From: Paractinoplanes bogorensis | Lineage (GTDB): Bacteria > Actinomycetota > Actinomycetes > Mycobacteriales > Micromonosporaceae | Direction of reading: 5' to 3' | DNA length: 64,000 nt | Assembly (NCBI RefSeq): GCF_018829635.1 | Contig: NZ_JAHKKG010000003.1 | Coordinates: 682,001-746,000 of the forward strand | Shown here: one piece after another, positions 13,317-35,220 of the stretch | How positions within the stretch are numbered: position 1 is the first letter of the stretch | How the letters are laid out: each line of letters starts with the position of its first letter | Notes under the pieces: generated by a model | Told to the model about the DNA's origin: nothing | Databases searched by the model: none | The model's input: only the letters and a program-made list of their open reading frames with translations | Program-made: the position numbers and the translations under genes

Positions 13317-14306
13317 GTGATGGACGAGGACGTGTTCTGGCCGCTGGCCGGTGGGCTGGGCCGACATCCCGATGACGACGCGTTCGAGCGCCTGACCGAT
13401 CTGCTGGCCGGGCGCTCGGAGGCCGACATCACCGGCTTCGCCGACCGGCTGGCCGACGTGTTGTGGGCACTGGACACTCCCGCCCACTTCCAGGCCTGCG
13501 AGACCGTGAGCGACGACGTGTTCCTCTACGTGCGCTGTGCCGTGGTCGGGGCCGGGCGGAAGGCGTACGAGCGGGTGCTGAGCCGGCCGGGCGGGATCGG
13601 CGAGTTCGCCGACGAAGAGGCGGAACTGCTGCTCACCGTGGCCGAGCAGGCGTACGAGCGGAAGACCGGGCGGCTCTGGGAACACGAGACGCCGGTCAGC
13701 TACGAGGCGGGCAGCAACACCGGGGCGTGGGGTGACGCCGCACCCGATTCGGACGACTGGTCTCCTCCCTGGCTCGACCTGATGCTCGGCTCGACGGGCC
13801 CGGCCCCGGTCCACGGGTACGAGTACTGCCTGGGCGAGGCCGCCGGCGCGGTCATCGCCGATCCCGCCTGGCAGAAATGGTGGGCCACGTCCGGAGTCGA
13901 CCGGTGCGAGCTGTTGCTGCTGCTCGACAGCTCAGGCGAGCAACTGCCGTCGACCGCCGTCAAGCGCGGCCGCAAACGGCTGCGGATCGACGTCGTCCGC
14001 GTGCCCGGCCCGCTCCCCGACGACCCGGACGCGTTGATGGCCCTGGCCGTCGACGAGATCCGTGAGCTGATGAGTCTGGCCGATCTGGGCCCGGTGCCGC
14101 CGCTGACGACCCCGGCCGTCGACACCGAGCGACTGGCGATCGCCGCGGCCGGCCCGGTCGTCGTCCCCGAGCTGCCCGCCGAGCTGATGGAACAGGCGAT
14201 GCGCACCGGCGGCCTGGGCCCGTTCGACGTCTTCGACTATTTCCGCGCCCACCCCGACGCGCCCGGCGCCGATGTGTGGCTCAACCTCGATCCGCGCGAC
14301 CCCTGA
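13317..14306 (+). CDS. DUF4240 domain protein
   Basis: 329 residues from GTG 13317, or 328 from the adjacent ATG 13320. The N-terminal part, to about residue 140, matches the DUF4240 pattern: DEDVFWPLAGG, a helix with FADRLADVLWALD, then an LYVRCAVVGAGRKAYERVL block. The C-terminal 180 residues contain DCELLLLLD-like and KRGRKRLRIDVVRVPGP strands. No catalytic residues are evident. It is cytosolic and ends 3 bp before the convergent gene. Actinobacterial DUF4240 proteins are common and unstudied. Confidence 0.75.
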   Translation: MMDEDVFWPLAGGLGRHPDDDAFERLTDLLAGRSEADITGFADRLADVLWALDTPAHFQACETVSDDVFLYVRCAVVGAGRKAYERVLSRPGGIGEFADEEAELLLTVAEQAYERKTGRLWEHETPVSYEAGSNTGAWGDAAPDSDDWSPPWLDLMLGSTGPAPVHGYEYCLGEAAGAVIADPAWQKWWATSGVDRCELLLLLDSSGEQLPSTAVKRGRKRLRIDVVRVPGPLPDDPDALMALAVDEIRELMSLADLGPVPPLTTPAVDTERLAIAAAGPVVVPELPAELMEQAMRTGGLGPFDVFDYFRAHPDAPGADVWLNLDPRDP

Positions 14307-14309
14307 CCG

Positions 14310-14789
14310 TCAGCCGCCCGGAGTCGTATCCCGGTGGTGGCGGGCCAGGTCGACGTATTCGAGGGCGTTGGTGCGGATGTGGGCGCGCTCGGCGTCGGTG
14401 ACCGGGCGGCGGACCTTGGCCGGCATGCCGAGCGCCAGCGAACCCGGCGGCACGACGAAACCCTCGGGGATCAGGGCGCCCGCGCCGACAATCGAGCCGG
14501 CGCCGATCCGGGCGCCGTTCAGGACGATCGCTCCCATGCCGATCAGCACGTCGTCCTCGATCGTGCAGCCGTGCAGCACCGCGCGGTGACCGACGCTGAC
14601 CCGGGCTCCGATGAGTGCCGGGAATCCGGGGTCGGCGTGCACGACGACGCCGTCCTGCAGGTTGGTGCTGTCGCCGACGACGATCGCGTCCCGGTCGGCG
14701 CGCAGCACGGCCGTGTACCAGACGCTCGAGTCGGCGCCGAGGGTCACTTTGCCGAAGACCACCGCGCCCGGTGCCACCCATGCGGTCAT
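14310..14789 (-). CDS. Gamma-carbonic anhydrase family protein (left-handed beta helix)
   Basis: 159 residues of hexapeptide repeats forming a trimeric left-handed beta helix. The metal-binding histidines of the gamma-CA/YrdA/PaaY family are present in LQDGVVVHAD and VGHRAVLHGC, and the C-terminal GMPAKVRRPVTD helix start is typical. ATG 14789 overlaps the upstream dehydrogenase stop, so this is the last gene of the 11-gene operon. PaaY-type members act as thioesterases protecting CoA pools (family knowledge). In a CoA-ester operon that role is as likely as CO2 hydration. Confidence 0.85.
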   Translation of the reverse strand: MTAWVAPGAVVFGKVTLGADSSVWYTAVLRADRDAIVVGDSTNLQDGVVVHADPGFPALIGARVSVGHRAVLHGCTIEDDVLIGMGAIVLNGARIGAGSIVGAGALIPEGFVVPPGSLALGMPAKVRRPVTDAERAHIRTNALEYVDLARHHRDTTPGG

Positions 14790-17536
14790 CGGGTCACCCT
14801 TTCCAGGACATCGAGGACATGGACGTACGGGTGTCCGGTGGCCCGGGTCATGCCGACCTCGCAGGTGCGGTTGCACGAGGCGTACGCGTCGAAGTGCCGC
14901 CCGGCCAGCTCGGCCACCTGGGGTGCGGTGGCGGCCGCGGTGAGCTCGGGATGCAGCAGTCCCCGATCCCCGGCGAAGCCGCAGCAGCCCCAGGAGCTGG
15001 GCACGGTGACCCGCTCGGCGACCGCCCCGGCCACCTTCAGAAGGGCCGGCGTCAGTCCCATCCGCTGGGCCGAGCAGGTCGGATGCAGGGCCAGGTCGCC
15101 GAGGCGTTCCGTCACGGTCAGCCGGTCGAGCAGCACGTCCGCCGTGTACTGCACCGCGTCGATGATCGTGGCGTCCGCGCCGACGAGTTGCCGCAGCCCC
15201 TCGGTGCAGGAGGCGGCGTCGACCACAACCGGGACGTCGCCCGCCAGCGCCGGTCGTACTCGCTCGGCCATGGCGTCGTGCCCGCGCGTCATGCCTTTCG
15301 ACTTCCACGGCGTCCCGCAGCACAGTCCCGGCAGGCCGGGCGGCGTGGCCAGCACGATCCCGGCCCGCGCACAGAGCAGCGCAAACGCCGATCGCATGTC
15401 ACCGGTGTCCCGGTGCGGCGACCTCGGCGGCGTGTCACCGGTGTCTTTGCTGGTCGGGCCAAACATTGTGTTGGTGCACGAGGCGAACAGGATCGCGTCC
15501 GGCCGCCCGGCGGGGGTCAGGCGCGGGCGTGGGGATCCGCCGCCGGGCAGATCGCGGGTCCAGAGCGGAGCGCCGACCGCGCGGTGGGCGGCGCGCGACA
15601 CCGGTGACGCGATCAGGGGCAGCCGGCGGGCCGTGCTGAGGGCCGCGCCCATCGTGCGGGTGGTCGCCGACCAGTGCCGGGCCGCGAACGACCACGCGGC
15701 CTGGGCATCGGTGGAGCGCAGACGCCGTACGAGGTCACCGGTGTTGATCTGCACCGGACACGCGGTCTGGCACATCCCGTCGACCGCGCAGGTGTCAACG
15801 CCGTCGTACTCGTAGTCCTTCTCGAGAGAGGCGACCAGCGCCGGATCACCGTCGCGGCGGGCCTGCTCGATGGCCCGGCGCAGCACGATCCGCTGCCGGG
15901 GCGTGGTGGTGAGGTCGCGGCTCGGGCAGACCGGCTCGCAGAAGCCGCACTCCACGCAGCGGTCCACCTCCTCCTCGACCGGCGGGGACGTCTTGAGCCC
16001 GGCCAGATGCGCGCCCGGGTCGTCGCTGAGCAGTACCCCCGGGTTGAGGATGCCGCCGGGGTCGCACAGCCGCTTGATCTCGCGCATCACGTCGTACAGC
16101 TCGTCGCCGTACTGCCGCCGCACGAACGGTGTCATCATCCGCCCGGTGCCGTGCTCGGCCTTGAGCGTGCCCCCGCGGCTCAGCACGAGCCCGACCATGT
16201 CCTCGGTGAACCGGCCGAACCGGTCCCGCCCCGACGGGTCGCCGAGCCGCTCGGTCAGCATGAAGTGGATGTTGCCGTCCTTGGCGTGCCCGAAGATGAC
16301 GGCGTGGTCGTAGGCGTGCCGCTCGAACAGCCCGATCAGCTCCCGGCAGGTCGGCAGCAGCTCCGGCACCGGGACGGCGATGTCCTCCAGCAGCGCGGCC
16401 GTGCCCGCCGGACGGGCCCCCGCCACCTTGGCGTAGAGGCCTTTTCGCAGGTGCCAGAGCCGATTGCGGGCCGCGGCGTCGGCCATCAGCGCAGGCGGTG
16501 TCTCGAGATCGAGCCGGCCCAGGACACCGGTGGCCCGGCCGGCCTGGTCGTCGGCCTCGGCCGCGCTGCCCGCCCGGTATTCGACGAGTAGGGCGGCCTG
16601 GTCCCGGATGTTGAGGGTGTGCAGCGCGTCCAGGTCGGGTTGGCCGACCCGAAGCGACGTGGCGTCGAGCAGCTCGATCGCGGCCGGCCCGGTGGCCACC
16701 AGTTCGGGCAAGGCGGCGGTGGCGGCAGCCAGATCTTCGAAGACCAGGAATCCCGTACGGGCGTGGGCGTGCACCGGCACCGTCCGCATCACGATCGAGG
16801 CCAGGAATCCGAGCGTGCCCTCGCTGCCGACCAGCAGATGTGTCAGGATGTCGGCCGGCCGGTCGTGGTCGAGCAGGGCGTTCAGGCCGTACCCCATGGT
16901 GTTCTTGAGCGCGAACTGCCGCTCGACCGACGTCCGCGACGCCGGGTCGTCGCGCACCCGGTCCCGCAGCCGCGCCAGCCCCTCCCACAGCGCCGGTTCG
17001 AGCGCCCGCAGCCGGTCGTCGGCGTCCGTGTCACCGGTGTCGAGAATCGTCCCCGACGGCAGCACGACCACCACCGAGTCGATCAGCGCATAGCTGTTGG
17101 CCGCCGTGCCGCAGGCCATGCCGCTGGAGTTGTTGGCCACCACCCCGCCCAGCGTGCAGGCGACCTCGCTGGCCGGGTCGGGTCCGAGCATCCGCCCGTA
17201 ACGGGCCAGCCGCGCGTTGACCTGCCGCACGGTCGCGCCCGGCCCGACCCGGACGCGCAGCCCGTGATCGAGCACCGCGATGTCCCGGAAGTGGCGGCGG
17301 CTGTCCACCAGGATGCCATCGGTGACACCCTGCCCCGACAGGCTCGTCCCACCCGACCGGAACGTCAATGGCAGCCCCACCGCGAACAGCCGTGCGACCT
17401 CCTCGGCCGACGCCACCGTCACCACGGCCCGCGGCGTCAGGTCGAAATGCGACGCGTCCCGGGCCATCCGCAGCCGATCGAGCGGCCGGGTGCTGACCGC
17501 GCCCGGCAACTCCGCCACCAGCCGCTCGACAGTCAC
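14786..17536 (-). CDS. FAD-linked / Fe-S D-2-hydroxyacid dehydrogenase (D-lactate or D-2-hydroxyglutarate type)
   Basis: 916 residues from GTG 17536. The N-terminal half is a PCMH-type FAD domain (LTFRSGGTSLSGQ, GPDPASEVACTLGG, NNSSGMACG) with a GlcD-like cap ending GRMMTPFVRRQYG and PGGILNPGVLLS. The C-terminal half has two ferredoxin-like clusters (CVECGFCEPVCP and CAVDGMCQTACP) and two CCG motifs (GLCCGTPWKS, WGCCGFAGD). This single-chain layout matches bacterial Dld-II/YdiJ enzymes, which oxidise D-lactate or D-2-hydroxyglutarate and pass electrons to the quinone pool. It is coupled by 4-bp overlaps on both sides. The substrate here is inferred to be a 2-hydroxyacid made by the operon. 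Confidence 0.88.
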   Translation of the reverse strand: MTVERLVAELPGAVSTRPLDRLRMARDASHFDLTPRAVVTVASAEEVARLFAVGLPLTFRSGGTSLSGQGVTDGILVDSRRHFRDIAVLDHGLRVRVGPGATVRQVNARLARYGRMLGPDPASEVACTLGGVVANNSSGMACGTAANSYALIDSVVVVLPSGTILDTGDTDADDRLRALEPALWEGLARLRDRVRDDPASRTSVERQFALKNTMGYGLNALLDHDRPADILTHLLVGSEGTLGFLASIVMRTVPVHAHARTGFLVFEDLAAATAALPELVATGPAAIELLDATSLRVGQPDLDALHTLNIRDQAALLVEYRAGSAAEADDQAGRATGVLGRLDLETPPALMADAAARNRLWHLRKGLYAKVAGARPAGTAALLEDIAVPVPELLPTCRELIGLFERHAYDHAVIFGHAKDGNIHFMLTERLGDPSGRDRFGRFTEDMVGLVLSRGGTLKAEHGTGRMMTPFVRRQYGDELYDVMREIKRLCDPGGILNPGVLLSDDPGAHLAGLKTSPPVEEEVDRCVECGFCEPVCPSRDLTTTPRQRIVLRRAIEQARRDGDPALVASLEKDYEYDGVDTCAVDGMCQTACPVQINTGDLVRRLRSTDAQAAWSFAARHWSATTRTMGAALSTARRLPLIASPVSRAAHRAVGAPLWTRDLPGGGSPRPRLTPAGRPDAILFASCTNTMFGPTSKDTGDTPPRSPHRDTGDMRSAFALLCARAGIVLATPPGLPGLCCGTPWKSKGMTRGHDAMAERVRPALAGDVPVVVDAASCTEGLRQLVGADATIIDAVQYTADVLLDRLTVTERLGDLALHPTCSAQRMGLTPALLKVAGAVAERVTVPSSWGCCGFAGDRGLLHPELTAAATAPQVAELAGRHFDAYASCNRTCEVGMTRATGHPYVHVLDVLERVTR

Positions 17537-18477
17537 GCCAGATCCCGTGCAGCCGCCACGGCGGCCGGTCCGATCGAATCGCGGGCCGTCGCCGGATCGC
17601 CGGCGGGGGACTGCTCGATGATCAGGAGCTCGACCGTAATGGCGACCGGGCTGGCGGCCACGTCGATCACGCCGCCGTACAGCGTGCCGGTGCGGTCGAC
17701 GGCCATCGCGTGCAGCGGCGCCGACGGGTCGGCGTCGGGGCCGACCGCGCCGTAGAGCGACATGACCTCGGCGCACGGACCGGCCGGCCCCCGGCCGTCG
17801 GCCTCGGCGTACACCGGGCCGACCAGGCTGCCCAGGCTGGCCCGGATGGAAGCCCGTGCGAACCCGGCCTCGGCACAGATGCGATCGGCGGCCACCCGCA
17901 GATTCTCTCCCGGCAGCACCCGCGAGAACACCACACGCGCGCCATCTGCGGGCGGAGAGCCGGTCGCATAGGGCGTGAAGACCGGCATATGCGTCTCGGA
18001 GTCGGTGGCACTGACGCTGCGGACCCCCGGCAGCGGATGGATGACCGCGTGCACCGGCACCGGCCCGACGGTCGTCTCCGGCCACAGGTGCCCGGCCTGC
18101 AGCACCCCGGCGGCGTCCATCCAGGCCGCGTGGGTGTGCATGAATACCGCTCCGTCGCGTTGCCCCACCGTGGCCGAGCCGCCGATGACACTGACCGGCC
18201 CGCGCGCGTGCCGGGTCTCGCTGTACCAGGCCGTGGTGCTCCCGTCGACGCACTCGGCCGGGATGCAGTAGGCGACCTCGCCGAGCGTGCCGCCGAGCAG
18301 TTCCACCTGCGCCGACTCGACCCCGAGCCGGGCCACCGCCGCCGACACCGCCTCGACCAGCGAAACGCCGGGCGTGAGCAGGACTGTCACCGGTGTCGAC
18401 CGCGTCGGTACCGACACCGCCCGGGTCGGCAGCGCCGGTCCGGGATGCACCAGGAGGGCCGGAACGGTGCTGGTCAC
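17533..18477 (-). CDS. Two-PPC-domain (DUF296-like) protein
   Basis: 314 residues from GTG 18477, which overlaps the ligase stop. I read two tandem PPC/DUF296-like units. The first (about 20-165) has GVSLVEAVSAAVARLGV, the metal-site-like MHTHAAWMD, and AGHLWPETTVGPVPVHAVI. The second (about 170-310) has PGENLRVAADRICAEAG, ASLGSLVGPVYAEA, a changed LHAMAVDRTG, and GGVIDVAASPVAITVELLII. PPC-fold proteins share the acetolactate-decarboxylase/Ptd012 fold, and some bind zinc through HxH (family knowledge). The first unit keeps HxH and the second does not. No function is known for this arrangement. In this operon a lyase, decarboxylase or hydrolase role is plausible. Confidence 0.65.
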   Translation of the reverse strand: MTSTVPALLVHPGPALPTRAVSVPTRSTPVTVLLTPGVSLVEAVSAAVARLGVESAQVELLGGTLGEVAYCIPAECVDGSTTAWYSETRHARGPVSVIGGSATVGQRDGAVFMHTHAAWMDAAGVLQAGHLWPETTVGPVPVHAVIHPLPGVRSVSATDSETHMPVFTPYATGSPPADGARVVFSRVLPGENLRVAADRICAEAGFARASIRASLGSLVGPVYAEADGRGPAGPCAEVMSLYGAVGPDADPSAPLHAMAVDRTGTLYGGVIDVAASPVAITVELLIIEQSPAGDPATARDSIGPAAVAAARDLA

Positions 18478-20006
18478 GGCGTCCACCCCTCGGCGAGCAG
18501 GCGCTCCCGGATCGTCCGCTTGACGATCTTGCCGTAGCCGGATTTGGGCAGCTCCGGCCACTGCACGAAGTGCCGCGGCACCTTGTAGCGGGCCATCCTG
18601 GGCTCCAGCCAGGCCCGCAGCGTGTCCTCGTCAGCGCGGCCGACCCAGACGGCCACGCCGACCTCGCCCCACACCGGGTGCGGCATACCCAGCACCGCGA
18701 CCTCGGTGACATCGGGGTGGGCGACCAGCTTCTCCTCGATGTCGCGGGGGTGGATGTTCGAGCCGCCCGAGATGTACATGTCGGAGGCTCGCCCGGTGAT
18801 GTAGAGATAGCCGTTCTCGTCGGTCATCCCAAGGTCACCGGTGTGGAACCAACCGTCCCGGAAGGCGGCCGCGTCGGCCTCGTCGTTGTCGAGATATCCG
18901 GCGCACACGGCCGGCCCGGCCACGCAGATCTCGCCGGTCTCGCCCGGACCGAGCTCGTGTCCCTCGGTGTCACGGATGGCCAGCTGCATGCCGGTCCGCA
19001 CCCGCCCGCAGGTCCCGAACTCCATCCCCTCGGGCCGCGCGCGCCCGTGTTCGCGCGGCGGAAGCACGGTGATGTTGCCGGTGACTTCGCCGAGGCCGTA
19101 GTACTGCACGAGCACCTCGCCGAGCACCGACCGGGCATGTTCCTGGTCCGCGTGGAACATCGGCGCGCCCGCGTAGATGACGTGGCGCAGGCTCGAGTGA
19201 TCGCGGGTCGCCGCGTCCGGGTGCTCGGCGATCTTCTTGAGGATTGTCGGCACGGTGAACATGTTGGTGACCCGTTCCCGCTCCACCAGGTCCCAGACCT
19301 CGGCCCCGTCCAGCCCGGGCCCGGTGGTCAGCACCGAACGTGCGCCCGCCACGACCTGCGTCAGCAGATGCACTCCGGCGCCGTGCGAGAGCGGCGCCAG
19401 CACGAGCGACGCGTCCTCGGCGGTCGTGCCCGGCATGAGATCGCACAGATGGTTCGTGACGACGAACCCCATCTGGTCGTGCGTCAGGATCGCGCACTTG
19501 GGCCGCCCGCTGGTCCCCGACGTGAAGAAGTACCAGGCCGGAGCCCCGTTCATGACCGGACAGTCGGGGACGGCGCCGGCCGGCAACGAGGAAACAGCGT
19601 CCGGTCCCGTGCCGTCGATCCACAGCACCTGGTCGCACGCGACGGCCGTCGCGTGATCGGGCTGGGAGGCGTGGCACACCATGAGCACCGGACGGCAGGC
19701 CCGGGCGATCACGACGACCTCGTCCGGCGTCAGGCGGCTGTTGGTCGGAGCCAGCACGGCCCCGATCCGCCACACCGCGAACATGGTCTGCACCAGCTCG
19801 ACACTGTTCGCGCTGTGCAGCAGCACGCAGTCGCCGGCCCGCACCCCGCGCCGGGTCAGCTCCGCGGCGAGCGCACCGACCCGGGAGTCGAGTTCCCGCC
19901 ACGTCCACCGCACGTCACCGTGCACGAGAGCGTCTGCCGACGGCAGCCGCTGCGCGGTCTGGGTCAGGAAGGCGGCCAGGTTGACGGCCCTCCGGACGGG
20001 GGTCAT
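18474..20006 (-). CDS. AMP-forming acyl-CoA ligase
   Basis: 510 residues. All ANL-superfamily core motifs are visible: A3 YFFTSGTSGRPK, A5 VQYYGLGEVTGN, A7 GWFHTGDLG, A8 GRASDMYISGGSNIHP, and A10 PKSGYGKIVKR with the catalytic lysine. It activates a carboxylic acid with ATP and CoA in the cytosol. ATG 20006 overlaps the thiolase stop and its own stop overlaps the next GTG. Chain length and substrate cannot be told from the sequence. It is close in layout to medium- and long-chain or aromatic acid ligases. It probably activates the acid freed by the operon's esterase. Confidence 0.9.
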   Translation of the reverse strand: MTPVRRAVNLAAFLTQTAQRLPSADALVHGDVRWTWRELDSRVGALAAELTRRGVRAGDCVLLHSANSVELVQTMFAVWRIGAVLAPTNSRLTPDEVVVIARACRPVLMVCHASQPDHATAVACDQVLWIDGTGPDAVSSLPAGAVPDCPVMNGAPAWYFFTSGTSGRPKCAILTHDQMGFVVTNHLCDLMPGTTAEDASLVLAPLSHGAGVHLLTQVVAGARSVLTTGPGLDGAEVWDLVERERVTNMFTVPTILKKIAEHPDAATRDHSSLRHVIYAGAPMFHADQEHARSVLGEVLVQYYGLGEVTGNITVLPPREHGRARPEGMEFGTCGRVRTGMQLAIRDTEGHELGPGETGEICVAGPAVCAGYLDNDEADAAAFRDGWFHTGDLGMTDENGYLYITGRASDMYISGGSNIHPRDIEEKLVAHPDVTEVAVLGMPHPVWGEVGVAVWVGRADEDTLRAWLEPRMARYKVPRHFVQWPELPKSGYGKIVKRTIRERLLAEGWTP

Positions 20007-21175
20007 CGCGTCACCGCCAGCATCGACGCGTAGTTGGCGACCGCCACGCCGCCCATGTTGAACACGGCGGCCCGCTCGACGCGGGGCAACTGCATCTCGC
20101 CGGCCTCCCCGACGAGTTGCATCGCGGCCATGATGTGCTGCGAGACACCGGTGGCACCGATCGGATGCCCCTTGGCCTTGAGCCCACCGCTCACGTTGAC
20201 CGGCAGCTTGCCATCGCGTTCGGTGTCGCCCGCCTCCAGCACCGAACCCGCCTGCCCCGGTGCGGCCAGCCCGAACGCCTCGTACTGCAGCAGCTCGGCC
20301 TGGGTGAAGCAGTCGTGCGTCTCCAGCAGGTCCAGATCGGACAGAGTCAGGCCGGCCGCGGACAACGCGCCGAGGAAGGCCCGCCGCGCGCCGTCGAAGG
20401 CAAGCGCATCGGCCCGCGCGTCGATCGCCATGTGGTCGTTGGCCTGCACCCGCGACAGCCACGACACCGACCGCCGGGCGGTGCGGGCCACGTCCGGAGA
20501 AGCGATCACCAGGGCCGCGGCCCCGTCCGAGATGAGCGAACAGTCGGTGCGCAACAGCGGGGGAGCGACCATCGGGTTCTGCGGCGACTCGGTGGCGCAG
20601 AACTCGACGCTGAAGTCCTTGTGCAGGTGGGCGTACGGGTTGCGCAGGCCGTTGCGGTGGTTCTTGGCGGCGATCCGGGCCAGGGCCAGCCGCTGGTCGC
20701 CGTACCGCTCGGCGTAGCGCCGGGCCAGTTCGCCGAACACCGCGGCGAAGCTGCCGTACTTGAGCTCGGTCGGGCGGTGGCAGGCGGACAGCAGCGCGCC
20801 GGCCGCGACGTCGCCGGGCACGGCCGTCATCTTCTCGGCGCCGATCACGAGCGCGGCCCGCGCGCGCCCGGCGGCCACGGCGTCCAAAGCCGTGAAAAGG
20901 GCCGCGCTGCCGGTGGCGCAGGCGTTCTCGACGCGTACGGCGGGAACCTGGGCCAGATCGGGCGAGCCGGCCCCGACCAGAGCGGCGTGGAAGCTCTGGT
21001 CCGAGAAGCCGTGGCCGTAGACACCGGCCGAGATGAACTCGATGTCACTCGGGTCGAGTCCGGCGTCGGCCACGGCCGCGGTGGCGACCTCGGCCATCAG
21101 GGTTTCGACGTCGGGTGCGCCGAGCTTGCCGAACGTGGTGTGGGCCCAGCCGATCATCTGTGCGGATGACGTCAT
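20003..21175 (-). CDS. Thiolase (SCP-x / acetyl-CoA acetyltransferase-like)
   Basis: 390 residues. The nucleophilic cysteine lies in VENACATGSAALF, the GHPIGATG histidine motif is present, and an NMGG loop precedes the C-terminus. The HDCF segment (LLETHDCFTQAE) in place of NEAF is typical of SCP2-type and lipid-transfer thiolases acting on branched or sterol side-chain acyl-CoAs. GGAGG lies just before ATG 21175. It would cleave a 3-ketoacyl-CoA. It is followed by the acyl-CoA ligase with a 4-bp overlap. Confidence 0.9.
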   Translation of the reverse strand: MTSSAQMIGWAHTTFGKLGAPDVETLMAEVATAAVADAGLDPSDIEFISAGVYGHGFSDQSFHAALVGAGSPDLAQVPAVRVENACATGSAALFTALDAVAAGRARAALVIGAEKMTAVPGDVAAGALLSACHRPTELKYGSFAAVFGELARRYAERYGDQRLALARIAAKNHRNGLRNPYAHLHKDFSVEFCATESPQNPMVAPPLLRTDCSLISDGAAALVIASPDVARTARRSVSWLSRVQANDHMAIDARADALAFDGARRAFLGALSAAGLTLSDLDLLETHDCFTQAELLQYEAFGLAAPGQAGSVLEAGDTERDGKLPVNVSGGLKAKGHPIGATGVSQHIMAAMQLVGEAGEMQLPRVERAAVFNMGGVAVANYASMLAVTR

Positions 21176-21201
21176 GGAAGACCTCCGGGGGGTGAGGAAG
21201 A

Positions 21202-21999
21202 TCAGGCGGCGCGGACGTGCAGGCCACCGTCGACGGGCAGCAGGACACCGTTGACATAGGCCGAGGCGTCGGACGCCAGGAACAGGGCGGCCCCGGCGAC
21301 GTCGCGCGCGGTGCCCATGATCCCGGTCGGGCTCTTGGCGTTGCGGGCCGCCTGGATGGCGCTGGTGTCGGCATCACCGGAGAGTTCCCGGTACGCCAGC
21401 GGGGTGTCGATCAGCCCGGCCAGGATCGCGTTCACCCGGACGCCGGTGTCCGCGTACAGGATGGCCAGGCTCTGGGTGAGCTGGTTGACCGCGGCCTTCG
21501 CGGCCGAGTAGGCGGGATACGGATACCCGGTCCACCGGATCGATGCCACCGATGACACGTTGATCATCGTTCCGCGGGTGGCGACCAGATGCGGCAGCGC
21601 GTACTTGGCGCCCAGGAACACGGTGTCGAGGTTGATGGCGACTGCCCGCCGCCACTGCTCGAGGCTCAGCTCCTCGGGCCCGCCCAGCTGGGTCGTGCCG
21701 ACGTTGTTCTGCACGATGTCGATCCGCCCGTACGCGGTGACGGTCTCGTCGACCGCGGCGGCCATCGCTCCCTCGTCGAGGGCGTCGGCCACGATCGGCC
21801 GGCACTCGCCGCCGTCCTCGGCGATGAGTTTCGCCGAGCGCAGGGCCGCCTCCCGATCGCGGTCCACGACGACCACGTTCGCGCCGTGCCGGGCGAAGGT
21901 GAGCGCGCATTCGAAACCGATGCCGTTGACGCCGCCCGGTCCGGTGCCGGAGTGGCCGCCGCCGAAAACTATTGCGGTACGGCCGTCGAGCGTGGTCAT
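21202..21999 (-). CDS. SDR family oxidoreductase with an expanded glycine loop
   Basis: 265 residues, classical short-chain dehydrogenase. The catalytic serine lies in NVSSVASI, the YxxxK is YSAAK, and NNVG stands for NNAG. The C-terminal end VNGVLLPVDGG is standard. The nucleotide-binding loop reads GGGHSGTGPGGVNGIG, about eight residues longer than TGxxxGIG, which is unusual. ATG 21999 overlaps the esterase stop. It probably oxidises a hydroxyl group on an operon intermediate using NAD(P). Confidence 0.9.
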   Translation of the reverse strand: MTTLDGRTAIVFGGGHSGTGPGGVNGIGFECALTFARHGANVVVVDRDREAALRSAKLIAEDGGECRPIVADALDEGAMAAAVDETVTAYGRIDIVQNNVGTTQLGGPEELSLEQWRRAVAINLDTVFLGAKYALPHLVATRGTMINVSSVASIRWTGYPYPAYSAAKAAVNQLTQSLAILYADTGVRVNAILAGLIDTPLAYRELSGDADTSAIQAARNAKSPTGIMGTARDVAGAALFLASDASAYVNGVLLPVDGGLHVRAA

Positions 22000-22889
22000 A
22001 CGACGTCCGACCAGAGCCAGCGCATGGTGTCGGGGAAGAGCGCCCCGCCATGGATCAGCGTGTGCCCGCCCTCGCCGAACTCGAGGTGGACGTCGTAACC
22101 GCGGTAGCGCAGCGCCGCCTCCATCTCGCGGTTCGCGAGGGGGATGTGGCCCAGCTTGATGTCCAGGTCCTTCTCTCCGGTCTGCAGATAGACCTTGAGC
22201 GGCCGCTTGTACTGCCGCCGGATCCAGGACGGGTACTGGTGGGCGCCGATGATGTCGAGGAAGCTGCCGCAGTGGCTGACGATCTTGCGGAACTGGTCGG
22301 GCCGGAACCAGCCGGCCGTGAACGAGCAGGCGCCGCCGGAGGAGATGCCGCAGATCGCGCGGTGCTCGGGGTCGCTGGAGATGGTGTACTCCGCGGCGAC
22401 GACCGGGATGAGCTCCTCGGCCAGGAACGTGGCGTAGTCGGCGTTGCAGTTGTCGTACTCGACGTTCCGGTTGCCGCGGCCGCCGTAGACGGGTGCTCCC
22501 GGGCCGGGGTTGCCGGGGTTGACGAACAACGCGATCGTCACCGGCATCTCGCCCGACGCGATCAGGTTGTCGAACACGGTCGGCACGTTCACGACCGGTC
22601 CCGCATAGTCGTCGCCGTCCTGGAACACCATCAGGCAGGCGGGCGTGACCGGGTCGTACTGGGCCGGCACGTACACGGAGTAGGTGCGGCTGGTCTCCGG
22701 GTAGACGAACGTGCTCCCGAATTCCCGGTGCGGCGTCACGGTCCCCTTGGGCGCGCCGTCCTTCGGGAGCGAGTCCGGGCCGAGCTCGTACGGTTCCTTG
22801 CCGTCCATGCTGTAGGCGTAGAAATCCCGGTCCCGGGAGGGCAGCCCACCCCACTCGACCGGCGCTTCGGCCGCGTTGTCGTCACTCAT
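21996..22889 (-). CDS. Putative esterase (Fes/IroE / esterase D-like)
   Basis: 297 residues, alpha/beta-hydrolase of the putative-esterase family: RTYSVYVPAQYD, LMVFQDGDDY, nucleophile in GISSGGACSF, acid in TGEKDLDIK, histidine in GGHTLIHG. There is no signal peptide, so it acts inside the cell after uptake. Related proteins hydrolyse siderophore backbones, feruloyl or other bulky esters. ATG 22889 overlaps the ABC ATPase stop. It links transport to the catabolic genes and suggests that the imported molecule is an ester. Confidence 0.85.
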   Translation of the reverse strand: MSDDNAAEAPVEWGGLPSRDRDFYAYSMDGKEPYELGPDSLPKDGAPKGTVTPHREFGSTFVYPETSRTYSVYVPAQYDPVTPACLMVFQDGDDYAGPVVNVPTVFDNLIASGEMPVTIALFVNPGNPGPGAPVYGGRGNRNVEYDNCNADYATFLAEELIPVVAAEYTISSDPEHRAICGISSGGACSFTAGWFRPDQFRKIVSHCGSFLDIIGAHQYPSWIRRQYKRPLKVYLQTGEKDLDIKLGHIPLANREMEAALRYRGYDVHLEFGEGGHTLIHGGALFPDTMRWLWSDVV

Positions 22890-23995
22890 CGAGAGGCTCC
22901 TTCGGTCCAGAGGAAGTCGTGGGCGGCCCGGGCGGCGGCCGGATCGCCGGCCTTCAGCGCGGCGGCCAGGGTCTGTACGGCGGCTGTGTCACCGGTGACA
23001 ATCAGCTCGATGTCACCGGTGGCTTCCGGGGCGGCCGCGTCGAACAGCAGCCGGTGCGCCTCGGCCGGGGGAGCGCTCGCCAGCCGGTCGGCCAACACCG
23101 CGTTTCCCGTACGCACGGCAAGCCGCTCGATGTCCTGCTGCCATCCCGCCCGATCACCGTCGGCACCGGCCGTCAACGCCCGCCACGCCCGGTTCGCCGC
23201 GCGCCGCAGCCGTTGCACCTCGACGTCGGGCACGGGCGCGGCGGCCAGCAGCTTGCGGGTGTAGGCCGTGGACGGGTTCCCGATGACCTGTTCGGTGCGG
23301 TCGAACTCCATCAGCTGCCCGTGTCTGAGCACCGCGACCCGGCTGCTGACGTGCCGCACCACCGACAGATCGTGGGTGATGAACAGATAGCTGACCCCGA
23401 GATCGCGCTGCAGTTCGACGAACAGGTTGAGCACCTGGGCCTGCACCGACAGGTCGAGTGCGGACACCGATTCGTCGCAGACCACCAGCTTCGGCGACGG
23501 CATCAGCGCCCGCGCGATGGCGATGCGCTGCCGCTGCCCGCCGGAGAACTGCGACGGATAGCGTTCGGCGGCCGACCGGTCGAGCCCGACCCGGGTGAGC
23601 ATCTCGCCCAGGCGCAGGTCCCGCTCGACGGCGGGCATCGTCGTGGCGGTCAGCGTCTCCAGCACCGACTGGCCCACCGTCCGATAAGGATTGAGCGAGC
23701 TGTACGGGTCCTGGAACACCGCCTGGATCTCGGTCGCCAGCGGACGGCGGGCGCCGCCGCGCAGGTGCGTGATGTCCCGCCCGGCGAAGACGATCCGGCC
23801 CGAGGCGGCCGGCACCAGACCCAGCACGGCGTTGCCGAGGCTGCTCTTGCCGCTGCCCGACTCGCCGACCAGCCCGACGGTCTCGCCGACCCCGATGTCG
23901 AGCGACACCCGGTCGACCGCGGTCGCCGCGGCCCGCCGCCGGCGGCCCCGGTAGCTGATGCTCAGGTCGCTGACCTCAAGCAGTGGTGACCGCAT
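22886..23995 (-). CDS. Oligopeptide-type ABC transporter ATPase (OppF/DppF-like) with a C-terminal extension
   Basis: 369 residues from ATG 23995, with AAGGAGG upstream. Residues 1-255 are a full ABC domain: Walker A GESGSGKSS, Q-loop VFQDPYSSLNP, signature FSGGQRQR, Walker B KLVVCDESVSALD, and the THDLSVV switch. The usual C-terminal oligopeptide-binding motif with cysteines is absent. Instead about 110 extra residues, alanine- and arginine-rich (QRLRRAANRAWRALTAG to HDFLWTEGASR), replace it. I do not recognise this tail. The start lies 20 bp inside the OppC-OppD fusion gene. Confidence 0.88.
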   Translation of the reverse strand: MRSPLLEVSDLSISYRGRRRRAAATAVDRVSLDIGVGETVGLVGESGSGKSSLGNAVLGLVPAASGRIVFAGRDITHLRGGARRPLATEIQAVFQDPYSSLNPYRTVGQSVLETLTATTMPAVERDLRLGEMLTRVGLDRSAAERYPSQFSGGQRQRIAIARALMPSPKLVVCDESVSALDLSVQAQVLNLFVELQRDLGVSYLFITHDLSVVRHVSSRVAVLRHGQLMEFDRTEQVIGNPSTAYTRKLLAAAPVPDVEVQRLRRAANRAWRALTAGADGDRAGWQQDIERLAVRTGNAVLADRLASAPPAEAHRLLFDAAAPEATGDIELIVTGDTAAVQTLAAALKAGDPAAARAAHDFLWTEGASR

Positions 23996-25904
23996 CGGCC
24001 GCCTCCTTCTCCTCGAGCCGGTCGACGTGGACGCACCGGCTGACACCGGTGACAGTGGGCGTCAGCGGGATCGGCGCGTGCGTGCAGTCGTCGGTGGCGA
24101 ACCGGCAGCGCCCGGCGAACCGGCACGACGACGGCCAGTCGGCCGGGGCGGGCACGGTTCCGCCGATCATCGGGAGCAGGACGCCCGGGGCGACCTTGGC
24201 CGGGATCGATTCCAGAAGCGCGGCCGAATACGGGTGCCGGGGCGCGGCGATCAGGTCGGCGGTGGGGGCGTCCTCGACGATCTGGCCCGCGTACATGACG
24301 ATCGCCCGGTCGCACACGTCGGCCAGCACTCCCCAGTCGTGGGTGACCAGGATCAGCGACATGCCCCGCTGATCGCGCAGGTCGACCAGCAGATCGAGCA
24401 CCCCGGCCTGCACCGACACGTCGAGCGCGGTGGTCGGCTCGTCGGCGATCAGCAGCTCGGGCTCGCCGGCCAGGGCGCGGGCGATGGCGACGCGCTGGGC
24501 CATGCCGCCCGACATCTCGTGCGGGTACTTCGTGTAGACCGCTTCCGGGTCGGGCAGCCGGACCGAGGCGAGGAGCTCGAGCGCGATCCGGCGAGCCTCG
24601 GACCGGGAGACACCCCGATGAGCCCGTACGGCCTCGGCGACCTGGCGCCCCGCGACGTGCAACGGGTCGAGGCTCGAGATCGGCTCCTGCGAGATGTAGG
24701 CGATCCGCTTGCCGCGCACCTTGTGCATCTGCTGCTCGCTGAGCCCGAGCAGGTCCTCCCCGCCCAGCGTCAGCCTGGCGGCCGAGATCGTCGCGCCCGG
24801 TGGCGGCACGCGCAGCAACCCGGACACGGTCATCGACTTGCCGCAGCCACTCTCGCCGACGATGCCGATCGTCTCGCCGCGGCCGACGTCGAAGCTGACC
24901 CCGTCGACCAGCGTGAGATCGCCGACCGCGACCGACAGGTCCTGCACCTCGAGCAGGATCTCGCGCCCCGCGGTTTGTGAGTACTCACTCACTAAAGCGG
25001 GGGCGGCCGCAGCGGGTGTGGCGGGCACGCGGCGCATCGTCGCGGCGAACGAGCGCCAACTGCTCAGCGACTTCCCGCCGGCGGTCGACTTGCTCGAATA
25101 GGTGTCGCGCAGCGCGATCCCCAGCAGCGTGAGACAGAGGCACATCAGCGCCACGATCCCGCCCGTCGGCACCAGCAGCCACTGCTGCCGGTTGATCGCC
25201 AGTTGCGCGTCCGACACCAGGTTGCCCCAGCTCGCCGCGGGCGGCAGCACACCCAGGTTGAGGAAGCCGAGCGACGCCTCGACCAGCATCGCGATGCCGG
25301 CGAACAGCGACACCTGGGTCAGCACCGGCCCGATCACGGCGGGCCGGATGTGCCGCCACAGGATCTGGAACGGCCCGAGCCCGGCCACCGTACCCGCGGC
25401 CACGTACGGTTCGGTGCGAGCGATCATGCTCACCCCGCGGACCACCCGCATCAGGCCGGCCGAGGCGAAGATGCCGAAGCTGACCATGGCGGCGGTCTCG
25501 CTGCGCCCGAACACGGCCAGCACCACCAGCAGCGTGATCAGCGCGGGAATCGACTGGATGACGTCGGCCACCCGCATCAGGATCGAGTCGACGATGCCGC
25601 CGATGGTGCCCGCGATCAGGCCGATCGAGACCCCGATGACCACGTACGTCACCACGGCCTGGAGCGTCCCGAAGAGGGTGACGCGTCCGCCGTACAGGAT
25701 GCGGCTCAGCACGTCGCGGCCGAGAGCGTCGGTGCCCAGCCAATGTGTGCCGCTGGGCCCGGACAGGATGTTGGCCAGGTCTTGCGCGTACGGGTCGTAG
25801 GGCGCGACGAGGCTCGCGAAGACGCACGCCAGCACGACCAGGGTGATGACGGCCAGGCAGGCGATCGCCAGCGGTTGCCGCAGCAGCCGGCGGAGGAGGA
25901 TCAC
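23976..25904 (-). CDS. Fused ABC transporter permease-ATPase (OppC-OppD type)
   Basis: 642 residues. Residues 1-270 are an OppC/DppC permease (first helix [38 protein letters not shown]-like loop around [14 protein letters not shown]). An alanine/proline linker spans about 275-310. Residues 315-640 are an OppD-type ATPase ([35 protein letters not shown]) with the cysteine-rich C-terminal motif [16 protein letters not shown]. Separate permease and ATPase chains are the rule, so this is a true gene fusion with no frameshift. It overlaps OppB by 4 bp and the OppF-like gene by 20 bp. Confidence 0.9.
24977..24988. repeat. GTGAGTACTCAC palindrome at the OppC-OppD fusion linker
   Basis: Perfect 12-bp palindrome inside the coding linker between permease and ATPase, identical to the palindrome upstream of the cupin-TetR operon at 39933-39944. 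Here it encodes part of LVSEYSQ. Confidence 0.5.
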
Positions 25905-26842
25905 GACGCCCTCACCTTCGGGTTGACGTAGGAGACGAGCACGTCCAGCACCAGGAAGACGACGATCACGGCGAGCGTGTAGAAGACGACGATGCCCTGG
26001 ATGACCGGCAGGTCGTGCTGGGTGGTGGCGGTGACCGCGAGCGCGCCCAGCCCGCCCATGCCGAAGATCTGTTCCATCAGCACGGTGCCGCCGAGCAGGC
26101 CGACGAAGAGCAGGCCGACGACCGGCAGCAGCGGGGCGGCCGCGTTGCGCAGCGTGTGCACGAAGAGGATCCGGCCGACCGGGATGCCGTTGGCCCGCAG
26201 GCTCTTGACGAAGTCGGCCTTGAGCACGGTCAGCATCTCGCTGCGGGTGTTCAGCGCGAGCGACGCCATCGAGCCGACCATCAGCGCGATCACCGGCAGG
26301 AACAGCGACGCCACCCAGTCGCGGGGCGAGACCCCGAACGGCACGTAGCCGGAGACCGAGAACAGGCCGAGCTGCACGGCCAGGATCGCCAGCAGGATGG
26401 TGGCGAACCAGAAGTTGGGCACGCTCATCAGCAGGACCGAGAGGCCGTCGGTGATCCGGGCCGCGATGCCGCCCCGGATGGCGCTGAACGCGCCCAGGGC
26501 GATGCCCAGCACGACCGCGAACAGCAGGGCCGCGATGGCCAGCGACAACGTGATCGACATGCGACTGGCCAGCAGGGCGGTCACCGACTCGCCGTTGAAC
26601 AGCGACGAGCCGAGGTCGCCCCGGACGGCGTGGGCCAGCCAGTCCCCGTACTGGGAAAGAACTGGTCGGTTGGTTCCCAGCTGCTGCTCGACGCGCGCGA
26701 TCTGGTCGGGGGTGGCGCCGGTGCCCAGGATCGAGGCGGCGATGCTGCCCGGCGCGAAGGACGCCAGCACGAAGCTCAGGATCGAGACGATGAACAGGAG
26801 CGGGAGCGCGAGCAGGGCGCGGCCGCCGACGAGTCGTAACAC
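25901..26842 (-). CDS. ABC transporter permease (OppB/DppB type)
   Basis: About 313 residues. GTG 26842 is preferred because AGGGAG lies 5 bases upstream; a GTG at 26863 is also in frame but has no spaced RBS. Six helices in the BPD_transp_1 layout are visible, with LGTNRPVLSQYGDWLAHAVRG and the EAA loop VKSLRANGIPVGRILFVHTLRN. It pairs with the OppC half of the downstream fusion to form the channel. It is separated from the binding-protein gene by 64 bp that hold a strong hairpin. Confidence 0.92.
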   Translation of the reverse strand: MLRLVGGRALLALPLLFIVSILSFVLASFAPGSIAASILGTGATPDQIARVEQQLGTNRPVLSQYGDWLAHAVRGDLGSSLFNGESVTALLASRMSITLSLAIAALLFAVVLGIALGAFSAIRGGIAARITDGLSVLLMSVPNFWFATILLAILAVQLGLFSVSGYVPFGVSPRDWVASLFLPVIALMVGSMASLALNTRSEMLTVLKADFVKSLRANGIPVGRILFVHTLRNAAAPLLPVVGLLFVGLLGGTVLMEQIFGMGGLGALAVTATTQHDLPVIQGIVVFYTLAVIVVFLVLDVLVSYVNPKVRAS

Positions 26843-26871
26843 TGTTACTCCCTGTCTCTGCACCTTTCCGG

Positions 26872-26901
26872 CTGCGGCCGGGGGCGAACCCCCGGCCGCA
26901 G
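26872..26901 (-). terminator. Intercistronic hairpin between binding protein and permease genes
   Basis: Perfect 13-bp GC stem (26872-26884 with 26889-26901) and a CGAA/TTCG loop, located 5 bp after the substrate-binding gene stop and 30 bp before the permease start. There is no U-tract. It probably works as a partial terminator or mRNA 3'-end stabiliser that keeps binding protein in excess over permease. Confidence 0.75.
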
Positions 26902-26906
26902 GGGGA

Positions 26907-28451
26907 TCAGGCCGTGGCTTTCCAGGAGATGTAGTCGAACTGGCCGAGCAGGGCCGACTTGCCGACCTCGATGTTCTTCGAGTAGAGCGTCGCGGGAGCC
27001 TCGGCCACCGGGACGAACCAAGCCTTGCCGGTGATCAGCTTGTTGAACTCGACGGACAGTGCCGGGAGTTCGCTCTCGGAGGCCCGGGCGAGTTTCCCGT
27101 ACGCCGTGTCGACCTCGTCGTCCTTCGGGTGGAACGGGTTCCACACGTCGGCGTACGGGTCCTTGGTCAGCCGGACGGCGTCGAAGTAGACGTCGCCGAG
27201 CAGCGCGTAGCTGACCGCGCCGACCGAGTACTTCTTCTGCCCGACCTCGGTGAAGTAGCTGCCCGCGGTGATCGGCGTGATGGTCGTGTCGATCCCGACC
27301 GCCTTCCACTGCTGGGCCACGGCCTGGGCCATGTTGGCCGCGCCGGCGTCGGCCGCGTCGGTCGCCACGGTCAGCTTGAAGCCGCTCGGGAAGCCGCCCT
27401 CGGCCAGCAGCGCCTTGGCCTTGGCCGGGTCGTACGGATAGCCGCCGGCTAGCGACTCGTCGTAGCCGGTGGTGTTGTCCGGCACGAACTGGTCGAACGC
27501 CTTGTAGCGGGGCCCGAGCACCTTGGCCAGGTTGGGCCGGTCGATGGCGTACTGCATCGCCTGGCGCACCTTCTCGTTCTTGAGCGCCGGAGTGAGCGTG
27601 CCGTCGCGGTCCCAGATCATCAGGCCGGCGCCGAGACGCTGGCCGTCGGCGACGTCGACCCCGGCCGCCTCGGCCGTCGGCACCAGCGTGCCGTCGTTGA
27701 CCGTGGACACCTGGATCTGGCCCGCCTTGACCGCGTCGAGGGCCGTGGTCGCGCTCGAGAACACCCGCAGCACGATCTTCTTCCAGTGCTGGTTCGAGGT
27801 GTCGTAGTAGTTCGGGTTGGGCGTGAGCGTGTAGTGGTCGCCCGACACCGTGTTGGCCGCGTCCAGCGTGTACGGGCCGGCGCCGAAGGTCGCGGTGCCC
27901 ATCTTGGCCGGGTCGGTCAGCCCCGCCTTCGAGATGATCATGCCGTTGTTGCACTCGCCGTCGTTCGCGAGCAGCGTCTCCATGCCGATGAAGGGCTCGG
28001 CGTACTTGATCACGACGGTGGAGGCGTCGGACGCGGTGATCGACGTGAACGGCTTGAGGTAGCCCTGGTTGAGGCCGGGGGTGGTCTGGAAGTACTTCAG
28101 CGTGTCGACCACGCTCTGCGCGTTCAGCTCGGTGCCGTCGGCGAACTTCAGGCCGGACCGCATCTTGAGGGTGAACTCGGTGTTGTTGTTCGCGTAGGAC
28201 CACGACTCGGCCAGGCCCGGCCCGTACTTCCCGTCCGCCGTCACGTTGATCAGCGACGCGTAGGTCAGGGAGAACAGCGGCGAGGAGCAGTTCGTCGGCA
28301 GCGCCAGGCTGTTGATGCCGGGAGGGATCGCGACGGTCAGCGTGTCCGACGCCGTGCCGGTGGTCTGGTTCTGAGCCGAGGTGGTGCATGCGGAGAGCAT
28401 CACTATCGCGAGGCCGGCGACGAGCCCCCGGCGAAGTTTGGTTATCGCCAT
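26907..28451 (-). CDS. ABC transporter substrate-binding lipoprotein (SBP family 5)
   Basis: 514 residues from ATG 28451, with AGGAG 5-6 bases upstream. The signal peptide ends in a lipobox (VMLSAC, Cys about residue 22), so it is tethered outside the membrane. The body has the family-5 pattern: YASLINVTADGKYGPGLAESW, FTLKMRSGLKFADGTELNAQSVVDTL, VRQAMQYAIDRPNLAKVL. Family-5 proteins bind peptides, but also nickel, opines, sugars and other compounds. The downstream esterase, ligase and thiolase argue against a simple peptide. First gene of the operon, divergent from a FadR/GntR regulator. Confidence 0.93.
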   Translation of the reverse strand: MAITKLRRGLVAGLAIVMLSACTTSAQNQTTGTASDTLTVAIPPGINSLALPTNCSSPLFSLTYASLINVTADGKYGPGLAESWSYANNNTEFTLKMRSGLKFADGTELNAQSVVDTLKYFQTTPGLNQGYLKPFTSITASDASTVVIKYAEPFIGMETLLANDGECNNGMIISKAGLTDPAKMGTATFGAGPYTLDAANTVSGDHYTLTPNPNYYDTSNQHWKKIVLRVFSSATTALDAVKAGQIQVSTVNDGTLVPTAEAAGVDVADGQRLGAGLMIWDRDGTLTPALKNEKVRQAMQYAIDRPNLAKVLGPRYKAFDQFVPDNTTGYDESLAGGYPYDPAKAKALLAEGGFPSGFKLTVATDAADAGAANMAQAVAQQWKAVGIDTTITPITAGSYFTEVGQKKYSVGAVSYALLGDVYFDAVRLTKDPYADVWNPFHPKDDEVDTAYGKLARASESELPALSVEFNKLITGKAWFVPVAEAPATLYSKNIEVGKSALLGQFDYISWKATA

Positions 28452-28522
28452 ACCCACTCCTAATTCTTCGAGGACGTTCCGGCGGTCTCGGCGCTGTGAC
28501 CTGTACCACCAGGTGGCGTAAC

Positions 28523-28531
28523 GGTATGACC
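28523..28531. promoter_or_regulatory. Candidate GntR/FadR-type operator (left)
   Basis: GGTATGACC (GGT-N3-ACC), the core used by several FadR-subfamily regulators such as PdhR/LldR, 72 bp upstream of the binding-protein start. A second inverted repeat, CCACCAGGTGG, sits next to it at 28506-28516. Confidence 0.5.
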
Positions 28532-28687
28532 ACTTGCTCGCAATGGCAATACCGCCGACGGCCCGAATTCGAAGCCGCGCAAAACCGTCTTAATCGTGAT
28601 GGAAACCTCGGTAAGCCGTGTCGCGCCCGTAAAATCCGTCGACACTCTGTAACCAGATGGGCGGGAGTGGTGTACGCGTAGCGGTCG

Positions 28688-28720
28688 ATTGGTATGGTGC
28701 GTCATCACATTGGTAGTGCC
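28688..28720. promoter_or_regulatory. Candidate GntR/FadR operators (right), a pair spaced 21 bp
   Basis: ATTGGTATGGTG (from 28688) and ATTGGTAGTGCC (from 28709) are similar sites exactly 21 bp apart, two helical turns, 22 bp upstream of the regulator start. They share the GGT half-site with the left operator, which fits control of both divergent units plus autoregulation. Confidence 0.45.
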
Positions 28721-28741
28721 ACTTGCAGCACAGGGGGACCG

Positions 28742-29449: not shown

Positions 29450-29569
29450 AGTTCGCCGTCCTCAGGTAAGGTCCATGCGCAGAACGGCCAGGTGGGCCTG
29501 CCTTGGGTCTTGACAAGGTGGGGTGAAATAGACGGGGCTCGCTTCCGACGTCGTACGGTGGGTGGTTCG

Positions 29570-35102: not shown

Positions 35103-35220
35103 GTCTCTCCCTCTGTCCGCGACGGTCATCGAAGCGCTTCGACGGTGGCGCCAGCGCAACGAAGACCGTCAATGTCTGATGGTCGCGATGCTAGAACGCC
35201 CGACGGATGCGGGCAACTTC

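Follow-up and report, generated by a model that had tools for sequence, protein, structure and literature searches.

We analyzed a 64,000-nucleotide stretch of Paractinoplanes bogorensis DNA (hereafter the window; contig NZ_JAHKKG010000003.1, positions 682,001 to 746,000) from a genome of 10.19 Mb, focusing on eleven minus-strand open reading frames (ORFs) packed across positions 14310-28451. All eleven are open and read as claimed in the original prediction, an eleven-gene uptake-and-catabolism operon, and every gene name proposed there is backed by Pfam domains. The count of eleven holds for the array itself; the unit comprises 12 genes once a divergent GntR/FCD regulator, absent from the earlier list, is included. 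Seven of the ten junctions are 4-bp overlaps and another is a 20-bp overlap (eight of ten overlapping), with gaps of 26 bp and 43 bp at the other two, which agrees exactly with the earlier count of nine junctions that overlap or leave 26 bp (8 overlaps and one 26-bp gap). The features are as follows:

26907-28451, minus strand: extracellular solute-binding lipoprotein (SBP), SBP_bac_5, Opp/Dpp class (Pfam, 201.7 bits)
25901-26863, minus strand: OppB-type permease (Pfam BPD_transp_1; no NCBIfam equivalog cut-off reached)
23976-25904, minus strand: OppC permease-OppD ATPase fusion of 642 aa (OppCD; Pfam OppC_N, BPD_transp_1, ABC_tran and oligo_HPY in one chain)
22886-23995, minus strand: OppF-type ATPase (Pfam ABC_tran)
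21996-22889, minus strand: esterase (Pfam PF00756, CE1 feruloyl-esterase/Fes-like) with a GISSGG nucleophile elbow
21202-21999, minus strand: short-chain dehydrogenase/reductase (SDR), proposed to oxidize a 3-hydroxyacid or 3-hydroxyacyl-CoA (Pfam adh_short_C2)
20003-21175, minus strand: SCP2-type thiolase, PRK07516 subfamily (Pfam Thiolase_N and Thiolase_C; NCBIfam 547 bits, cut-off 412)
18474-20006, minus strand: acyl-CoA ligase, PRK07470-like (Pfam AMP-binding; NCBIfam 759 bits, barely below the cut-off of 774)
17533-18477, minus strand: two-domain PPC/PCC (DUF296) protein (Pfam PCC, PF03479, two stretches, 56.2 bits against a cut-off of 25)
14786-17536, minus strand: FAD/Fe-S D-2-hydroxyacid dehydrogenase with a Dld-II-like domain set (PF01565, FAD_binding_4; PF02913, FAD-oxidase_C; PF13183, Fer4_8; CCG 23.8 bits)
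14310-14789, minus strand: gamma-class carbonic anhydrase (gamma-CA)/PaaY-like hexapeptide protein (Pfam Hexapep)
28495-28557, minus strand: 63-bp block upstream of the SBP gene, identical in P. bogorensis and P. ovalisporus
28694-29449, plus strand: divergent GntR/FCD regulator (LldR-like, 79 bits against a cut-off of 311)

Among the NCBIfam matches listed, the thiolase alone scores above its cut-off. The SDR reaches none among its best 25 families listed, and the gamma-CA/PaaY-like protein falls short of both candidate models, at 159 bits where 250 are needed for gamma-CA and 121 where 320 are needed for PaaY. Scanning the window with Rfam at the gathering threshold, and for tRNAs, gave no match.

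The block has a narrow distribution within the genus. The PPC protein, the SBP and the thiolase are each found in two of 67 genus genomes, our own included (the SBP and thiolase at strict E-values). The second genome, that of P. ovalisporus, carries all eleven genes in identical order, their proteins being 80-98% identical, an agreement beyond chance, together with a 94% identical GntR/FCD gene and the same outer flanks. At the corresponding sites of two other genomes (G001 and G028), 2.9 kb separates the penicillin-binding-protein gene (window positions 29492-31990) from the SpoIIE-type kinase gene (8840-12940), and neither the operon nor the GntR gene finds a match in the stretches fetched there. 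Because the regulator and the operon are present or absent together, we conclude that they were acquired jointly or, less simply, lost jointly, and we treat the regulator as a member of the system. This co-inheritance, like the gene families, their order and the active-site motifs of the thiolase, is read directly from the sequences; judged by it, the 12-gene block is horizontally acquired as one unit. The 63-bp block stands out from the rest of the intergenic region, which diverges more between the two species, and contains TGGTCATACCG at 28522-28532. This putative site is one mismatch from TGGTnnnACCA, the GntR/FCD-type consensus. The acquired block is probably GntR-controlled.

Outside Paractinoplanes, the genes of this block occur in different company. 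We scanned 84,980 species genomes with a PPC alignment, which yielded 135 confirmed relatives and 80 retained loci. The ligase is present in 69 of these, the SDR in 54 and the thiolase in 47; wherever thiolase and ligase both occur (47/47), the ligase follows the thiolase directly on the same strand, and in 57 of the 80 loci the ligase lies within 1.2 kb of the PPC gene. As the ligase is unmatched in 11 loci at the cut-offs used, the PPC protein is not exclusive to this core. Across 394 class genomes, the PPC protein gave eight matches at E 0.001, four of them strong, our own genome included. The core also occurs on at least 87 plasmid records, judged by the thiolase. Twelve thiolase-anchored plasmid loci include nine with a PPC gene (eight by tblastn, and L118 by annotation only) and three (L109, L112 and L117) in which the PPC protein finds no match.

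The partners of the core vary with the lineage. In proteobacteria, the core usually keeps company with a tripartite ATP-independent periplasmic (TRAP) importer, its large permease being matched in 55 of the 80 loci, and with an IclR regulator, placed by clustering in 43 of 86 loci. Among the 80 loci, the eight Actinomycete ones outside Paractinoplanes (L030-L037) all carry a GlcD-type FAD oxidase and a medium-chain dehydrogenase/reductase (MDR), and seven of them a major facilitator superfamily (MFS) carrier. Counting L028 as well, the GlcD-type oxidase lies just downstream in eight of the nine non-Paractinoplanes Actinomycete loci with thiolase, ligase and PPC genes, suggesting that a 2-hydroxyacid product recurs, handled by an enzyme unlike that of the window. 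Neither L028 nor L027, which has the PPC gene without thiolase or ligase, carries this oxidase. L029, L030 and L031 also have a clustered gamma-CA gene, as does the plasmid locus L109. The neighbors of the FAD/Fe-S dehydrogenase gene of Streptomyces chartreusis, an M24 peptidase and a flavin reductase, are uninformative. Two plasmids place other genes next to the core. In Aminobacter MSH1 (L112:1949-13645), nitrile hydratase, amidase and hydrolase genes lie upstream of thiolase-ligase-SDR, with the PPC protein unmatched; in Rhodococcus (L109:11771-19424), two amidohydrolases, a Rieske protein and a reductase directly precede thiolase-ligase-gamma-CA, again with the PPC protein unmatched.

The uptake genes also occur apart from the core. 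SBP_bac_5, two permeases and two ATPases together form an Opp/Dpp-type ABC importer, and the SBP is nearest among solved structures to YliB (1uqw), at about 96 bits at best, so no ligand class can be assigned. The SBP finds matches at E 1e-60 in six of 196 genomes of another genus, g48. In three of these (G111, G285 and G570), SBP-OppB-OppCD-OppF occurs with a homologous esterase (on the opposite strand to the importer in G570), with SBP identities to the window of 44-47% and OppF identities of 63-66%; the other three (G605, G144 and G596) have the importer without such an esterase. In five of the six g48 loci, OppCD matches in one continuous stretch spanning residues 7-626 or more, at 47-56% identity, and it lies in two pieces in different frames in the sixth (L186). 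The P. ovalisporus OppCD frame (L024:3010-4982) is interrupted in its ATPase half, which is either real or an assembly error. No thiolase or PPC match occurs in the 20 kb fetched at G111, G285 and G570. CoA-transferase III genes are found no more than about 6 kb from the esterase in G111 and G285, two of the three g48 loci with this esterase. An Opp-type importer and esterase close to acyl-CoA genes is therefore a recurrent arrangement, where an importer of this type feeding a thiolase/ligase branch had been called unusual. Of ten fetched loci with esterase relatives, L167 and L168 alone include Opp genes. We tried these two as a clue to the substrate and set them aside, since their neighbors (PrpF, PrpD, CoA-transferase III, a citrate-synthase-like protein and an S15 hydrolase) indicate merely organic acids or esters.

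Rather than a single unique pathway, as first supposed, the block is by its comparative gene content a mosaic of an importer-esterase module, a thiolase-ligase-PPC-SDR core, and an FAD/Fe-S dehydrogenase with a gamma-CA/PaaY-like protein, the first two of which live apart elsewhere. The gene-neighborhood search with the PPC protein that had been suggested as a check recovers the full eleven-gene set in P. ovalisporus, and the core recurs widely. The earlier statement that no described pathway has this set survives in part: our literature search found no operon with this gene set, and the substrate is nameless there, but the core set is widespread. Among the titles of DUF296 papers listed, none concerns a bacterial catabolic operon. 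The window joins two recurring modules in a new way; their chemistry class is familiar, and the substrate is not. The core is common in soil, root and marine bacteria, with no substrate named in the literature found, and, staying constant while its importer changes (TRAP, MFS or Opp), it makes a clean case of modular pathway assembly.

The window thiolase has the motifs NACATG, ETHDCF, GHPIGATG and NMGG, and its best solved match is 4bi9, at 188 bits. SCP2-thiolase active-site motifs are present in all 59 cassette thiolases (found in 92 loci). The PPC protein looks like a metalloprotein. Its first domain has a candidate metal site, H114-x-H116...H130, and an H-x-H motif also occurs in the second half of three of 81 PPC proteins. 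Because D108, F112, H114 and H116 formed part of the scan pattern, selection accounts in part for their invariance across the 80 loci; residues conserved outside the pattern are H130, W119, D159, E161 (80/81) and E237. A structure model with a mean predicted local distance difference test (pLDDT) score of 91.4 shows the PPC fold by Foldseek (3hwu, 2hx0 and 2h6l), matching single PPC domains that include the metal-containing AF0104. Lower-ranked, weak Foldseek matches include the zinc protein PTD012 and several acetolactate decarboxylases or homologues (probability 0.33-0.84). When PPC and acetolactate decarboxylase profiles are aligned with hhalign, H114, H116 and H130 pair with the decarboxylase motif at an E-value of 0.014 but a probability of 3%; among 200 column shuffles, one reaches as high a score, and with a control family the E-value is 0.15 and the H-x-H...GH motif is unpaired. 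PF03306 (acetolactate decarboxylase) is not among the Pfam matches of the PPC protein and has no match in the window's own genome.

The arrangement of the two PPC domains also varies. In Variovorax, Roseomonas and Bartonella, they are encoded by separate adjoining genes. An Agrobacterium plasmid (L018:14924-15884) has a second, split PPC pair opposite the two-domain gene, beside an Lrp regulator. On a Skermanella plasmid (L022:13968-14840), the two-domain gene lies beside ParB-family and AAA ATPase genes, and the rest of the core is unmatched in the fetched stretch.

From these families and their context, we propose a set of reactions, their order, their regulation and a class of substrate. 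The Opp-type importer would take up a small ester (or lactone). No hydrophobic N-terminal segment or signal peptide is seen by eye in the esterase, which appears cytoplasmic from its sequence, so the ester itself is probably the imported molecule. This CE1-like enzyme would free a short-chain 3-hydroxy or 3-oxo acid, which the ligase would convert to its CoA ester. Crotonase-type hydratase queries match none of the 80 loci (as a control, each query recovers the others at E 1e-20; the queries did not extend to MaoC-type hydratases), suggesting that the acid is probably already oxygenated at C3 on entry. The SDR would then supply the 3-oxo form by oxidation at C3, and the thiolase would split the 3-oxoacyl-CoA into acetyl-CoA and a 2-hydroxyacyl-CoA. 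The latter product would follow if the acid is hydroxylated next to the cleaved carbonyl (at C4, or at C2 for a 2-hydroxy-3-oxo acid cut between C2 and C3), and it would explain the recurrent 2-hydroxyacid oxidases of the Actinomycete loci. A thioesterase, perhaps the gamma-CA/PaaY-like protein, may release the D-2-hydroxyacid, which the FAD/Fe-S dehydrogenase would oxidize to a 2-oxoacid, passing electrons to respiration. The PPC protein may be a metalloprotein working on the 3-oxo or 3-hydroxy intermediate as an isomerase, lyase or hydrolase, and not a DNA-binding protein.

Taken as a whole, this reading of an acquired catabolic block, from imported ester through a 3-hydroxy or 3-oxo acid and its CoA ester to acetyl-CoA, 2-hydroxyacyl-CoA and finally a 2-oxoacid, is one we favor tentatively, as quite possible but short of probable. 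The route proposed at the outset, in which an imported ester is hydrolyzed inside the cell, its acid is CoA-activated, oxidized and thiolyzed, and a 2-hydroxyacid is oxidized into respiration, stands as the best reading, not as a proven one. If it is true, it provides a testable metabolic role for PPC/DUF296 proteins, which are often annotated as DNA-binding, and points to a common soil or plant organic acid whose breakdown was overlooked.

Our best guess at the substrate is an acetolactate-like acid, a 2-hydroxy-2-alkyl-3-oxo or 2,3-dihydroxy-2-alkyl butanoate that would give acetyl-CoA and lactoyl- or 2-hydroxyisovaleryl-CoA. A narrower version would make the core an undescribed, importer-swapping pathway for such acids, wired in Paractinoplanes to an ester importer for, e.g., plant esters of branched dihydroxy acids. 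The two-PPC protein would then be a relative of acetolactate decarboxylase that needs a metal to act as isomerase or lyase and, to our knowledge, the first catabolic PPC-domain enzyme. The TRAP and PPC lines are concordant here but none is strong, and we consider this version unlikely. The proteobacterial TRAP binding protein resembles PDB entry 4oan (508 bits in L018, 64% identity in L046), and the Rhodobacterales form has a different TRAP set, nearest to 4p8b at 222 bits (L120). The ligand modeled in 4oan and, less surely, in 4p8b is probably (S)-2-acetolactate. A review lists 2-acetolactate among new TRAP ligands from the Enzyme Function Initiative (EFI) screening (PMC5812351). Acetolactate synthase (ALS), ilvC, mmsB and Lut-type neighbors occur at single plasmid loci. 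A link to valine or isobutyryl-CoA, hinted at by plasmids of R. leguminosarum (L114) and R. pseudokoreensis (L109), was rejected because mmsB matches none of the 80 loci.

Several observations weigh against the proposed pathway or its acetolactate-like substrate. The structural overlap between the PPC protein and the decarboxylases is weak, with template-modeling (TM) scores of about 0.2-0.3, and ALS, mmsB and LutB queries match none of the 80 loci (ilvC was not tested). A GlcD-type or FAD/Fe-S oxidase is unclustered or unmatched in the 71 proteobacterial loci, in L027 and L028, and in the plasmid locus L109. The importer and esterase of the window are unlike those of the other cassettes, so the substrate may differ; acetolactate itself, moreover, would need no SDR.

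The closest described logic leads to a different acid. Catabolism of a 2-deoxyaldonate would start with the import and opening of a lactone, proceed through a CoA ester that is oxidized at C3 and thiolyzed to acetyl-CoA and glyceryl-CoA, and end with the FAD/Fe-S enzyme oxidizing glycerate. A deoxyribonate pathway with acyl-CoA intermediates has been proposed for Klebsiella michiganensis from mutant fitness data (Price et al. 2019, PMC6365646), and its main text names the same enzyme classes (CoA-synthetase, 3-hydroxyacyl-CoA dehydrogenase, thiolase and lactonase) but mentions no DUF protein. Sugar or sugar-acid genes adjoin some cassettes: L120 has a mannonate dehydratase and an idonate dehydrogenase, and L117 an FGGY kinase. 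In the Rhodococcus-type cluster, the MFS carrier is galactonate/HpaX-like and the MDR is of the threonine/polyol type. Glycerate kinase and CoA-transferase, however, are not among the eleven genes, and a deoxyaldonate substrate seems to us improbable. The absence of crotonase matches in the 80 loci would suit a plant phenolic ester of the rosmarinate or chlorogenate type, from which the esterase would free a hydroxycinnamate for activation by the ligase, with the PPC protein as a new hydratase, beta-oxidative deacetylation by SDR and thiolase, and phenyllactate as the D-2-hydroxyacid. The nearest solved relatives of the esterase are CE1 and feruloyl esterases, but at only 38 bits for the best CE1 matches; feruloyl-CoA synthetase is the second-best solved match of the ligase (253 bits), and a Paracoccus cassette lies near paa genes. 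The cassette TRAP binding proteins, by contrast, are nearest to 4oan and 4p8b, small-acid types, and ring-cleavage genes are not conspicuous in the annotated loci viewed, except for the L109 amidohydrolase and Rieske genes; this substrate is a rather poor prospect.

The last two alternatives appear very unlikely. Imported 3-hydroxybutyrate oligomers could be hydrolyzed, oxidized, activated and thiolyzed to acetyl-CoA, as a 3-hydroxybutyrate dehydrogenase model gives the SDR 145.9 bits (cut-off 258) and the esterase touches a short-chain polyhydroxyalkanoate depolymerase model (23 bits, cut-off 150). Both scores are below cut-off, and such a route offers no role for the PPC protein, the gamma-CA or the 2-hydroxyacid oxidases (FAD/Fe-S in the window, GlcD-type in eight of nine other core-bearing Actinomycete loci). 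The block might instead be two independent neighboring units, a peptide-type importer with an esterase and an acyl-CoA unit, given that both modules occur separately elsewhere. Their junction in the window, between the esterase and SDR genes, is nevertheless a 4-bp overlap, the order is kept in a second species, and the whole is present or absent as one block with one regulator; the chance of two separate units is correspondingly slight.

Three other genes of the window are noted here. A 1366-aa hybrid histidine kinase (8840-12940; receiver, PAS, SpoIIE phosphatase and a second ATPase domain) adjoins the operon. A DUF4240 gene (13317-14306) lies between the kinase gene and the operon end and is unmatched at the P. 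ovalisporus locus (G038) and at both empty sites. Further away, positions 33996-35159 encode a GH12 glycoside hydrolase with a CBM2 domain and an N terminus that by eye resembles a signal peptide.

The individual enzymes can be compared with known systems. The thiolase shares the nucleophile Cys and the HDCF, GHP and NMGG motifs with SCP2-type thiolases (4bi9, 3zbg and 6hsj) and differs from them in belonging to the bacterial PRK07516 subfamily. The steroid side-chain aldolases Ltp2/Sal have the same fold with a YDHF or YDCY motif, as stated in PMC12329534. Because all 59 cassette thiolases have ETHDCF in its place, a retro-aldolase reading was ruled out; the eleven genes also include no DUF35 partner. 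The FAD/Fe-S enzyme is likened by domain set alone to the Dld-II FAD/Fe-S D-lactate dehydrogenase, for which PMC4481167 describes PF01565, PF02913 and PF13183 in one chain. The PPC protein has the PPC fold and the H-x-H...G-H motif in common with PH0802 (2dt4) and AF0104 (2h6l), and it may share them with acetolactate decarboxylase (5yho and 4bt3), although its similarity to the last is weak; unlike all of these, it carries two PPC domains per chain, with the H-x-H motif in domain 1. Compared with the Klebsiella deoxyribonate pathway, as set out in the main text of PMC6365646, the CoA ligase, 3-hydroxyacyl dehydrogenase, thiolase and lactone or ester hydrolase are alike by enzyme class alone, and the proposed products are likewise acetyl-CoA and a 2-hydroxyacyl-CoA. 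The operon lacks the CoA-transferase and glycerate kinase of that pathway and adds the PPC protein, the gamma-CA, the FAD/Fe-S dehydrogenase and the Opp importer.

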